Shown here: one piece after another, positions 7,996 through 43,069 of the stretch
Numbering within the stretch: the stretch's first letter is position 1
Layout of the letters: every line of letters begins with the position of its first letter
Assembly (NCBI RefSeq): GCF_016902445.1
Contig: NZ_JACSNX010000001.1
Location: 186,001 to 250,000, forward strand
Origin: Oscillibacter valericigenes
Lineage (GTDB): Bacteria > Bacillota > Clostridia > Oscillospirales > Oscillospiraceae
Reading direction: 5' to 3'
Length of the DNA stretch: 64,000 nucleotides
Position numbers and translations under genes: made by a program
The notes under the pieces: model-generated
Databases searched by the model: none
Told to the model about the DNA's origin: nothing
Seen by the model: the letters and a program-made list of their open reading frames with translations, nothing else

Positions 7996-9451
<1,456 letters not shown>

Positions 9452-9594
9452 TGCAGGTGCACTAGCTTTCAAGTTCCACGGCGCAGTTTTGGGGCCCCCG
9501 CGCAGTCTGCTGCGTGGGGAGAGCCGGAGCGGCGGAAGGAGCGAGCTTTCGCCACGGGCGGAAGCGAGGGATCTGGAGTGGGCGACGGCGACGA
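9452..9594 (+). other. Inserted segment between two copies of the rpoD 3' end
   Basis: 143 bases between the rpoD stop codon and the second copy of the rpoD end. There is no convincing reading frame. Two imperfect hairpins are visible: a 10-bp stem, CCCCGCGCAG with CTGCGTGGGG (9 of 10 matching), and GCTTTCGCC-ACG-GGCGGAAGC (8 of 9). It reads as a small insertion at the gene end; origin unknown. Confidence 0.6.
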
Positions 9595-9638
9595 GCCACC
9601 CCAGCCGTTCCAAGAAGCTGAAGGATTTCCTCAACTGA
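9595..9638 (+). repeat. Second copy of the rpoD 3' end
   Basis: A 44-base direct repeat of 9408-9451, in the same orientation. Both encode [13 protein letters not shown] and a TGA stop. They differ at seven bases in five codons (CGC/CGT, AGC/TCC, GAC/GAT, TTT/TTC, TTG/CTC), all synonymous. Sequence upstream of base 9595 bears no relation to rpoD. Confidence 0.9.
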
Positions 9639-25738: not shown

Positions 25739-25755
25739 CACAACGTCCTTTGCTC

Positions 25756-25962
25756 AATTAGGAGTTAGGAATGAGGAATTAGGAATTTTGGTGTCCGGCT
25801 CCGCCGGACAAATTTCAATCAGTTTCGCCGTATCTTGAATTCGGAATGAGAAATGGAAAATTAGGAATGATTGTGGTGACCGCTTCGCCGGACAAATTTC
25901 AATCGTTTCGCCGCAGGCGAAACACCTCCATTCCTAATTCCTAACTTCTAATTCCTAATTCT
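25756..25962. repeat. AATTAGGA-type repeat element
   Basis: The left end carries AATTAGGAGTTAGGAATGAG, continuing with GAATTAGGAATT. The right end (25930-25962) carries the same kind of sequence inverted. Inside are two diverged copies of about 80 bp (25756-25836 and 25837-25921), each with a CGCCGGACAAATTTCAATC core. Hairpins are GTCCGGC-TCC-GCCGGAC and GTTTCGCC-GCA-GGCGAAAC. No coding frame is present. It looks like a non-autonomous (MITE-like) or REP-like element. Confidence 0.7.
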
Positions 25963-36875: not shown

Positions 36876-36906
36876 CAAAAGCAGGCCGCCCCTCCGGGCG
36901 GCCTGC
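36876..36906 (-). terminator. Terminator of the ACT/PFL operon, beyond the duplicated gene end
   Basis: A perfect 11-bp stem (36881-36891 with 36896-36906) and TTTT on the minus strand. It lies 4 bases after the stop codon of the distal copy of the PFL gene end, not after the gene itself. Confidence 0.8.
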
Positions 36907-36910
36907 GGAT

Positions 36911-36949
36911 TCAGTTCTTCAAACTGTGGAGGGGTGCCGGGATACGGCC
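36911..36949 (-). repeat. Second copy of the PFL-gene 3' end
   Basis: A 39-base direct repeat of 37101-37139, exactly 12 codons plus stop ([12 protein letters not shown]). It differs at one base, CCG versus CCC for the same proline. Sequence beyond the repeat on either side is unrelated to the gene end. Confidence 0.9.
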
Positions 36950-36950
36950 A

Positions 36951-37095
36951 GTCCCAGCCGGGTAAACCCGGCCGGGACCCCTGCTTCGATTGCAATGCTC
37001 GGCGGAAGTAAATTCCGCCTGCGCCAAGGTTTTGCCAATGGCAAAACGCTTGTACGGCGCAAAGCGCCGCCCCATCTGCGATGGGGTCCCCGGGG
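36951..37095. repeat. Array of five to six tight hairpins between the duplicated gene ends
   Basis: Consecutive hairpins: 36951-36963 with 36966-36978 (12 of 13), 37001-37007 with 37013-37019, 37029-37036 with 37040-37047, 37055-37060 with 37064-37069, 37070-37076 with 37080-37086, and a CCCCGGGG palindrome at 37088. Loops are mostly 2 to 5 bases. No coding frame is credible. Confidence 0.75.
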
Positions 37096-37100
37096 CGGCC

Positions 37101-38459
37101 TCAGTTCTTCAAACTGTGGAGCGGTGCCGGGATACGGCCGCCCCGGGCGATGAAGTCCGCGCTGGACTCCGGATGTACCGGCATCACCGGGGCGCTGCCC
37201 AGGAGGCCCCCCATCTCGATCCGGTCCCCCACCGTCTTGCCGGGGGCCGGCAGCAGCCGCACGGCGGTGGTCTTGTTGTTCACCATGCCGATGGCCGCCT
37301 CATCGGCGATGATGGCGGCGATGGTCTCCGCCGGGGTGTCACCGGGCACGGCGATCATGTCCAGTCCCACGGAGCAGACGCAGGTCATGGCCTCCAGCTT
37401 GTCCAGGCAGAGGGTCCCCGCCTCGGCGGCGGCGATCATGCCCTCGTCCTCGCTGACGGGGATAAAGGCGCCGGAGAGGCCGCCCACGGAGGAGGACGCC
37501 ATGACGCCGCCCTTCTTCACCGCGTCGTTCAGCAATGCCAGCGCCGCCGTGGTGCCATGGGTGCCGCAGACCTCCAGGCCCATCTCCTCCAGGATCCGGG
37601 CCACGCTGTCCCCCACCGCCGGGGTGGGCGCCAGAGAGAGGTCCACGATGCCGAAGGGGGTATCCAGCCGACGGCTGGCCTCCTGTGCCACCAGCTGGCC
37701 CATGCGGGTCACCCGGAAGGCGGTCTTCTTCACCGTCTCCGCCACCACGTCAAAGGGCTGGCCCTTCACCGCCTGCAGGGCGGTGCACACCACGCCGGGG
37801 CCGGAGACGCCCACGTTGATGACCTTCTCCGCCTCTCCCACGCCGTGGAAGGCGCCGGCCATGAAGGGGTTGTCCTCCACGGCGTTGCAGAACACCACCA
37901 GCTTGGCGCAGCCCAAGCCGTCCCGGTCCGCCGTGGCGGCGGCGGTGTCCTTGACGATGCGGCCCATGAGAGCCACCGCATCCATGTTGATGCCCGCCCG
38001 GGTGGAGCCCACGTTGACAGAGGAGCATACCAGCTCCGTCCGGGCCAGCGCCTCCGGGATGGAGCGGATCAGCTTCTCATCGGCCTTGGTCATGCCCTTC
38101 TGCACCAGGGCAGAGTAGCCGCCGATGAAGTTGACGCCGCAGGTCCGGGCCGCCCGGTCCAGCGCCAGGGCGAAGGGCACGTAGTCCTCCGTCTCGCTGG
38201 CGCCTGCCACCAGGGCCATGGGGGTGACGGAGATCCGCTTGTTGACGATGGGGATGCCGAACTCCCGCTCGATGTCCTCCCCGGTCCGCACCAGCTTCTC
38301 CGCGTACCGGGTAATTTTGTCGTAGATCTTCTCACAGGCCCGCTTTGGGTCCGGATCGCAGCAGCTCAGCAGGGAGATGCCCATGGTGATGGTGCGGATG
38401 TCCAGATGCTGCTGGTCGATCATCTCAATGGTGGATAAGATTTCCTTCTGGTTCAGCAT
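37101..38459 (-). CDS. PFL family protein (UPF0210/DUF711)
   Basis: 452 residues from ATG 38459 (GGGAGA precedes); the upstream frame extension is spurious. It belongs to the UPF0210 family, named for distant similarity to pyruvate formate-lyase: [20 protein letters not shown] near the N-terminus, and [40 protein letters not shown] and [20 protein letters not shown] further on. Function is unknown. It is routinely paired with an ACT-domain UPF0237 gene, as here. Its 3' end is duplicated 190 bp downstream. Confidence 0.88.
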
Positions 38460-38493
38460 AATGTATCTCCCAACGTACAAATTCTCTCTAAGG

Positions 38494-38701
38494 AGCCCCG
38501 TAAACCGGGAAAGGGGGCTAGGGGAAAACCTCCGGTTTTCCCCAGTTCGTTCGCCGCCGGCAAACGAAGAAATTGAAATCATTTTCGGCAGGACATGCGC
38601 CTGTCGAAAATTCCTTGACCCAGCCGCCTTGGGCGGCGTCCCCAGTGACCGACGTCACTGGGGGTGGGGGTTCTAAAGGGGGAGCCTGCTCCCCCTTTAG
38701 A
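38494..38701. repeat. Array of seven hairpins between the ACT and PFL genes
   Basis: Hairpins in order: 38494-38499 with 38514-38519; 38521-38530 with 38534-38543; 38546-38555 with 38559-38568 (9 of 10); 38581-38592 with 38600-38611 (11 of 12); 38623-38628 with 38632-38637; 38640-38649 with 38654-38663; and 38672-38685 with 38688-38701. The last has a perfect 14-bp stem that includes the ACT stop codon and may end or attenuate transcription into the PFL gene. Confidence 0.75.
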
Positions 38702-42741: not shown

Positions 42742-42831
42742 CCAAATCCGTCGAAATTCTTTTGAGGAAAACGGGGAAACTTCCCCCGTCTTTCCACTGC
42801 CGCTCTGAGCAGAATGCCGGAAACAAGCAAG

Positions 42832-42931
42832 CGCCCCGGCAAAAGCCGGGGCGCCCCAGCTTGTCGAAAATGTTTTTTCGACAAGCTGCTCACGGCTGCA
42901 GAACTTTCCCGAAAGTTCTGCAGCCGCGTGA
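42832..42931. repeat. Three long hairpins in the 42672-43069 spacer
   Basis: Hairpins: a 10-bp stem at 42832-42841 with 42846-42855, a 14-bp stem at 42858-42871 with 42876-42889, and a 15-bp stem at 42895-42909 with 42912-42926. The first is repeated exactly at 43023-43046. The rest of this 398-base spacer holds the operon promoter on one side and no gene. Confidence 0.7.
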
Positions 42932-43022
42932 TTTAATTGGCGCAGGACACCCTTCCCGGGTTTCCCGCACACACCCTTCCTCCCCGTTTCCGGAGCTTAC
43001 CAGATTGGTCGGAAGGCCAAAG

Positions 43023-43046
43023 CGCCCCGGCAAAAGCCGGGGCGCC
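43023..43046 (-). terminator. Terminator of the ddl-apeA gene run
   Basis: A perfect 10-bp stem with an AAAA/TTTT loop, 23 bases after the apeA stop, followed by GCTTTGG on the minus strand. It is an exact copy of the hairpin at 42832-42855. Confidence 0.65.
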
Positions 43047-43069
43047 CGCACATGTTTGTCTCTGCCGGC

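Follow-up and report, generated by a model that had tools for sequence, protein, structure and literature searches.

What left the UPF0210 gene of Oscillibacter valericigenes with two copies of its own end, one closing the gene and the other lying beyond a row of hairpins and next to the terminator, is the question raised by this locus of the window, by which we mean the whole 64,000-nt stretch of DNA that was analysed. From comparison of the segment with its relatives in other genomes, we consider it probable that the insert represents a family of short (~110–140 nt), non-coding, hairpin-rich mobile elements of the Oscillospirales, the element (E) comprising hairpins P0–P4.

Organization and history of the UPF0210 gene end

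As the preliminary description had reported, the last 13 codons of the gene including the stop are present twice on the gene strand (Table 1). Both copies of this segment (D) read GGC CGT ... AAC TGA and are identical at 38 of 39 positions, the sole difference being silent (CCG/CCC). The spacing of the repeat is 190 nt, with 151 nt separating the two copies, and with six more bases on the terminator side it extends to 45 nt at 93%. The terminator had likewise been placed correctly beyond the distal copy, its stem beginning 4 nt past the distal stop, and the description of the intervening 151 nt as a run of hairpins agrees with the folding of a 301-nt region around them, which is 6 sd better than that of its own shuffles. 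Since the distal copy is the end of the UPF0210 gene itself, it does not belong to an unrelated old repeat family. The NCBIfam family match begins only at residue 43, and for this reason the true start of the gene is probably near 38459 and not at 38582.

Table 1. Positions of the features of the UPF0210 and rpoD loci in the window
Feature	Position	Strand	Remark
UPF0210 gene	37101..38582	-	NCBIfam PRK05313 equivalog
X at UPF0210	37136..37147	-	Junction sequence CCCGGGGC-GGCC, spanning the first base of D
Proximal copy of D	37101..37139	-	Last 13 UPF0210 codons with stop; functional gene end
X' at UPF0210	37089..37100	-	Perfect reverse complement of X (12 nt); immediately 3' of the UPF0210 stop; 5' end of the insert
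P0 hairpin	37070..37086	-	CCCCATCGCAGATGGGG; same hairpin present in a G002 copy
P1 hairpin	37055..37069	-	
P2 hairpin	37025..37052	-	CAAG-C-GTTTTGCC..GGCAAAAC-CTTG, one bulged C; most conserved part
P3 hairpin	37001..37019	-	
P4 hairpin	36951..36978	-	3'-terminal hairpin of the element, with arms that vary
Match of family core to covariance model	36990..37077	-	95.4 bits
Distal copy of D	36911..36949	-	Apparently the original UPF0210 end, severed from the gene
Intrinsic terminator of UPF0210 gene	36877..36906	-	Beyond the distal copy of D
X at rpoD	9400..9410	+	AAAACTGCGCC
Proximal gene end of rpoD insertion (second family)	9408..9451	+	
X' at rpoD	9480..9490	+	GGCGCAGTTTT
Hairpin element at rpoD (second family)	9491..9594	+	
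Distal copy of rpoD gene end	9595..9638	+	

The 3' region of the gene was searched in 86 genomes of the same genus, and the 30 best loci, that of the window included, were read. The relatives named from the UPF0210 protein are Oscillibacter and other Oscillospiraceae. An insertion accompanied by duplication of the gene end had been suggested, and the empty sites that were looked for in close relatives were found in the same-genus genomes G002, G005, G085 and G049, where the gene has a single end, the stop is followed directly by the terminator and the hairpin segment is absent. The gene match and the terminator-side match share roughly one copy in G002 and G003 (39 nt on contig C59 of G003). 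The G003 gene is in two partial pieces, that on contig C32 being cut by the contig end, and its apparently empty state is read from C59, the one piece that extends to the insertion site. At the codon that differs between the two copies, the four empty relatives have CCC, as does the distal copy, and for this reason the distal copy looks like the original at this position; CCG occurs in some more distant relatives.

A family of hairpin cores beside gene ends

A search of its own genome with the hairpin segment gave 17 places at E < 0.01, and a covariance model of the core (P1–P3) was built from 17 sequences. The copies listed by this model number 117 in G000 (31), G085 (31), G002 (21) and G005 (34), and 118 in genomes chosen as copy-rich, namely G073 (40), G065 (35), G056 (24) and G083 (19); 219 of these 235 copies, from the eight genomes, were fetched and used. 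Core copies therefore number 19–40 in each of the eight genus genomes examined, and at least one is present in 51 of the 86. Of 395 genomes sampled from the order, at least 37 have the core at E ≤ 1e-6, as do at least 20 of 172 genera; these are lower bounds, since few candidates were scored per genome. No exact match to one P1–P2 pattern was obtained in viral contigs.

The stems of the element are kept by compensatory changes. Across 116 distinct core sequences, changes on both sides were seen in 24 of the 25 stem pairs, with 437 such cells compared with 101 after shuffling, counts that lean towards the model because the alignment was fitted to it; the covariation signal was lost in slid structures. 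The stem cells of the core comprise 2662 Watson-Crick, 64 G-T, 22 A-C and 84 other combinations.

The repeat at UPF0210 is not due to chance, since copies of the same core elsewhere, the flanks of which were checked for duplications as the preliminary description had proposed, mostly have a direct repeat on either side: one scoring at least 28 flanks 168 of the 219 copies, compared with 8 of 1443 cross-locus pairings. The other 51 copies are without a strong direct repeat, and several of them lie beside tRNA genes and may belong to another class. In 138 of the 168 strong-repeat copies the distal copy of D starts 25–60 nt after the core, a preset range, so that the constancy of the 3' end arises partly by selection; most of the strong-repeat copies read outside this range were arrays or of the tRNA type. 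The 138 copies fall into 58 sites by shared k-mers, a rough clustering that merges a few different genes (e.g. tsf with uvrB). At the 36 sites from the first four genomes, the distal copy begins 29–55 nt after the core, just past P4, which mostly terminates in a G run plus several more bases (CTGGGAC at UPF0210), and D is 37–112 nt long with one tRNA-type outlier of 138 nt.

A simple open-frame rule, which misassigns some gene starts (e.g. L209), places 27 of these 36 sites at gene ends. The similarity between the two copies stops at most 2 nt from the stop codon in 10 of the 27 and beyond position +12 in 8, and the junctions lie mostly 33–82 nt upstream of the stop codon. The typical layout can be written L R d stop (T) – X' – E – R d stop T, with a complete end retained by the gene and a second one left beyond E. 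At gene starts, where the junction is just within the gene, the element lies outside the gene and antisense to it, as seen by eye at L013 and L403 and at the annotated truB gene of Vescimonas fastidiosa. Proximal and distal copies were compared by codon at 28 gene-end sites, two of the 30 having been dropped for an identity below 75%. Differences fall 59, 25 and 20 times on codon positions 3, 1 and 2, respectively, 56 codon changes are synonymous and 28 are not, and one clean stop is kept in 23 of the 28 distal copies. Because of this concentration at the third position and the clean distal stops, both copies of D appear to have served as coding sequence through much of their past, with the remaining five distal ends seemingly in decay.

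The host genes that were looked up are mostly housekeeping genes. Among the 17 proteins concerned, GlyS, Alr, UvrB, Tsf, Era, Pgi, PrfB and DnaB score above a curated NCBIfam cut-off, and an EF-G-like protein, Fhs, AspS, UppP, MutS, TrmL, two OmpR-type regulators and an ABC ATPase have matches below the cut-offs, several of them because a cut stretch of the gene was used.

The same layout is found in other genera and in one other family of the Oscillospirales. The sample of 28 loci behind this statement consists of the best hit per genome and hence leans to the tRNA-linked class; 12 of the 28 have a repeat scoring at least 20, at least two of these (L363, L364) lying beside tRNA-type terminators. 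In the complete record of V. fastidiosa MM35 (NZ_AP023416.1; L406, 2890–3180 of the locus) a copy of the family at the start of truB is accompanied by a 63-nt duplication (61/63 identical), and its junction complement is 9 nt long. In a genome from the other family of the order (L387, G125:C46) the end of a gene that resembles rplL by eye is duplicated along with its terminator, with a junction complement of about 18 nt, also read by eye.

Core copies also lie beside apparent tRNA genes and terminators, in the window's own genome at L002–L007, L009, L011 and L017, and elsewhere at several of L365–L373 and at L404. These were recognised by eye, one tRNA being confirmed. Many have a longer 5' part containing AAAATCGATATTTT and no gene-end repeat, and they perhaps represent an older or source class. 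One tRNA-linked copy in G002 is 92% identical to the core in the window. Two records deposited as Bacteriophage sp. (UNVERIFIED), L403 (MT838853.1) and L404 (MT838705.1), 4.5–5 kb in length, were considered as an autonomous form and set aside, as their genes look bacterial-chromosomal.

The junction complement, the rpoD insertion and persistence at one locus

The 5' end of the insert is often a complement of the junction at which D starts. This complement, X', was first noticed at 36 sites and then counted at 58: it is at least 8 nt long at 30 of the 58 (3.3% in the cross-site control), at least 11 nt at 21 (0.07%) and shorter than 8 nt at 28. The complementarity is centred on the start of D, covering about positions -6 to +7 around the L-R junction. 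Between species, X and X' of the same gene change together (GGACAATGTGC/GGACAACGTGC, GTCGAGATGGC/CGTGGAAATGGCGG, GGCTGATCGCCGG/GGCTGGTCCCCGGAG), as read by eye from examples, and X' differs from its target by at least one base at alr in five genomes, at the GATGGC site in G085 and at the response-regulator site in G083. Inverted repeats native to the target were considered as the source of X' and are weak, reaching 8 nt in 4 of 31 cases compared with 3% by chance, and X' is for this reason taken to be mostly borne by the element.

A short motif, (C/G)GA, ends at the junction or one base before it at 26 of 63 sites, compared with a background of 8.9% (p 6e-12), or 10.5% in the same codon phase. 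The motif had been spotted by eye and was tested on largely the same sites, in three windows (16/63 vs 4.5%, 26/63 vs 8.9% and 30/63 vs 17.4%), of which the middle one is quoted.

The preliminary description had treated the duplicated end of rpoD as a like case, and this holds for the layout, including the X/X' geometry, but not for the hairpin element, as the rpoD insert gave no match to the covariance model of the UPF0210 core. The rpoD segment is a member of a different hairpin family, and the presence of one layout in two such families suggests a general process. The insertion is shared by G003 (96% over 265 of 281 bases), and G002, G005, G073 and G085 have empty sites at which the gene end alone is matched, in one copy. 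In G073 a relative of the second-family core (L400) lies at a gene end that is duplicated over 34 nt, running through the stop, and no X' was seen there. Further relatives lie within apparent RNase P RNA genes, identified by eye, of G000 (L398, C30:128015-128090) and G005 (L397, C119); an inverted partner precedes the core by about 100 nt, and the core apparently forms an extra helix. Also by eye, the terminator region right after the UPF0210 stop in G067 (L131) seems to contain a hairpin segment like that of the second family.

The UPF0210 event had been proposed to be the younger of the two, and two comparisons agree with this. The rpoD insertion is common to the window and to G003, while G003 looks empty at UPF0210 as judged from contig C59, and the two copies of D are identical at 38 of 39 positions at UPF0210 compared with 37 of 44 at rpoD, although identity of D is a poor clock because recombination may keep the copies alike. 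The rpoD insertion is probably the older.

Two other repeats were seen in the window. Identical 28-nt terminator-like hairpins at 42829–42856 and 43020–43047 lie 191 nt apart with other hairpins between them, and CCGGAAAC ahead of the first recurs inverted ahead of the second; they gave no hit with the covariance model and possibly represent a third family of hairpins arranged in the same way. The region 25750–25960 has TTAGGAATT-like runs in inverted arrangement and an inner 23-nt repeat (25798, 25882), and has the appearance of a separate MITE-type repeat.

Units made up of the element and D also occur in tandem. In the one-contig genome G085, glyS and a response-regulator gene each have three such units and several other loci have two, and such arrays would be natural if the L-R junction remained a target after insertion. 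Many insertions are old: of the 122 copies whose locus also has an orthologous insertion, 88 have their nearest core at that locus in a different genome. Core identities within a locus range from 0.34 to 0.97; many exceed 0.7, and many others are near the between-locus mean of 0.52, so that some gene ends were probably hit independently.

Possible origins and relation to known systems

No mobilising enzyme was found among the four types looked for. At E ≤ 1e-5, reverse transcriptase (RT, PF00078) is absent from the copy-rich genomes G000, G002, G003, G005, G042 and G083 and from others, and present in 34 of the 86 genus genomes, including the copy-rich G085 and G073; Y1 transposase (PF01797) is absent from the copy-rich G000, G002, G003, G073, G074 and G083, and present in 31 of the 86, including G005, G042 and G056. 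As the genomes named are 91–98% complete, one absence by itself carries little weight, but the absences recur. TnpB (PF07282) is above its cut-off in one of ten copy-rich genomes and IscB (PF14239) in none of the ten.

We read E as a non-autonomous, structure-based mobile element. It is joined 3' to the top strand at R and 5' to R'L', a bottom-strand sequence, so that one strand turns into the other at E. An element of this kind would insert at a site favouring (C/G)GA-N. DNA repair synthesis from the left side, L, would re-make the gene end, which would then be joined to E; a duplication that varies in length while its 3' junction is rather constant could be accounted for in this way. X', the short inverted copy of the junction, would form the joint and would itself be made in a fold-back or guide step. 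Because L-R stays whole after insertion, X' could let the element find the same junction again, giving rise to tandem arrays and to persistence at one locus. Only insertions that leave the gene whole would survive selection, and movement would have to depend on something encoded elsewhere, be it a host function or an unrecognised enzyme. We tentatively go further and suggest, as an idea that may well prove wrong, that this is a selfish element that writes its own guide, acquiring a 10–18 nt complement of the target junction and a second gene end and becoming locus-specific, re-targetable and protected within essential genes without a known transposase, integrase or RT. On the reading of E as a mobile element, a non-coding element could live harmlessly in essential genes and a repeat could carry target-specific complementarity, and what closes a housekeeping gene in these gut bacteria may be a duplicate that an insertion produced.

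Of the other explanations, replication template switching alone survives best, though we regard it as unlikely. Forks would stall at strong hairpins, fold-back and slippage would make X' and D, and E would be a passive repeat. Tandem inversion duplications and quasipalindrome template switching share the direct–inverted–direct order and the perfect hairpin arms, and the order seen here, direct, short inverted and direct, is that left by a fold-back rearrangement; the tandem arrays fit slippage. The low number of G-T stem cells (64 compared with 2662 Watson-Crick) points the same way, and PMC8794818 states that RNA hairpins can be both generated and maintained by template switching, which could explain the covariation of X with X' as well as that of the stems. 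Random switching, however, would not be expected to yield a core conserved across genera, a preference for (C/G)GA, or rather constant boundaries at the joint in many genes, these ends having been read within the preset search range.

It is less likely still that R d stop X' E moves as a site-specific integrative cassette, a circle bringing its own gene end and acted on in trans by a recombinase on the folded strand. The gene end is reconstituted, the units accrete in tandem, X' lies directly after or near the stop, and both copies of D look like coding sequence in their distribution of differences over codon positions at the 28 sites, all of which a cassette would explain, but dozens of different genes are involved, each with its own R and X', and no core site beyond (C/G)GA is shared among them. 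A host 3'-UTR structure acting in mRNA stability, termination or the end of translation, duplicated secondarily and kept for the benefit of the host, would fit the covariation, the persistence at orthologous loci and the excess of G-T over A-C in stems (64 and 22), which favours the sense strand, but is very improbable given the antisense copies at gene starts, the presence or absence of the element between close relatives and the variation of X' by locus. RNA splicing, with E as part of an intron and X' as an internal guide, was also considered; the topology fits, but five of the 28 distal ends are without a clean matching stop and there is no intron model match in the sequences scanned.

The literature, in narrow searches, yielded no description of such an element, from which its absence from print is not established, and passages of PMC8040213 make no mention of Oscillibacter or Oscillospir-. 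A repeat that often ends at the stop, a 5' end complementary to the junction and the (C/G)GA preference are three features new to us.

Several known systems share one or more of these properties. Phages, ICEs and integron attC cassettes that insert at gene 3' ends supply the gene end a second time, accrete in tandem and often use conserved genes. The element described here likewise leaves a copy of the host gene end and an intact gene, but it is a unit of about 200 bp without genes, with many different targets and a locus-specific X'; unlike integron cassettes, it has no common core site at its borders, which vary by locus with only (C/G)GA enriched. REP and REPIN elements, mobilised by RAYT (Y1), are short, palindromic and intergenic, have a bulged stem and occur in tens of copies. 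Our element is also a dispersed, imperfect palindrome with a bulge, but has a long gene-end duplication and a target-complementary X', and Y1 is missing from several copy-rich genomes.

Group II introns and target-primed retroelements pair with their target at the insertion point and have a rather constant 3' end and a variable duplication. An RT retrotransposon, a bacterial SINE, was an attractive candidate in view of the rather constant 3' end, the variable duplication and the 5' joint, and was rejected as RT is missing from several copy-rich genomes. Group II introns differ in the same respect, and Rfam gave no match at gathering in the window and, at ten loci scanned, none to an intron at E values up to 1. 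In the guide RNAs of TnpB and IscB from IS605-type elements a structured non-coding core adjoins target-derived sequence, whereas here the guide-like part spans the junction; TnpB and IscB, like Y1/RAYT, were rejected as partners, being missing from several, most or all of the copy-rich genomes examined. MITEs of DDE transposons have fixed terminal inverted repeats and a short target duplication that is constant in length, whereas the ends of the present element (X'..R) vary by locus and its duplication varies from 37 to 112 nt. The element resembles integrative elements in leaving the gene intact, REP elements in its dimensions and fold, and base-pairing-guided elements in the match to its junction, but fails a defining test of most of the known families tried.
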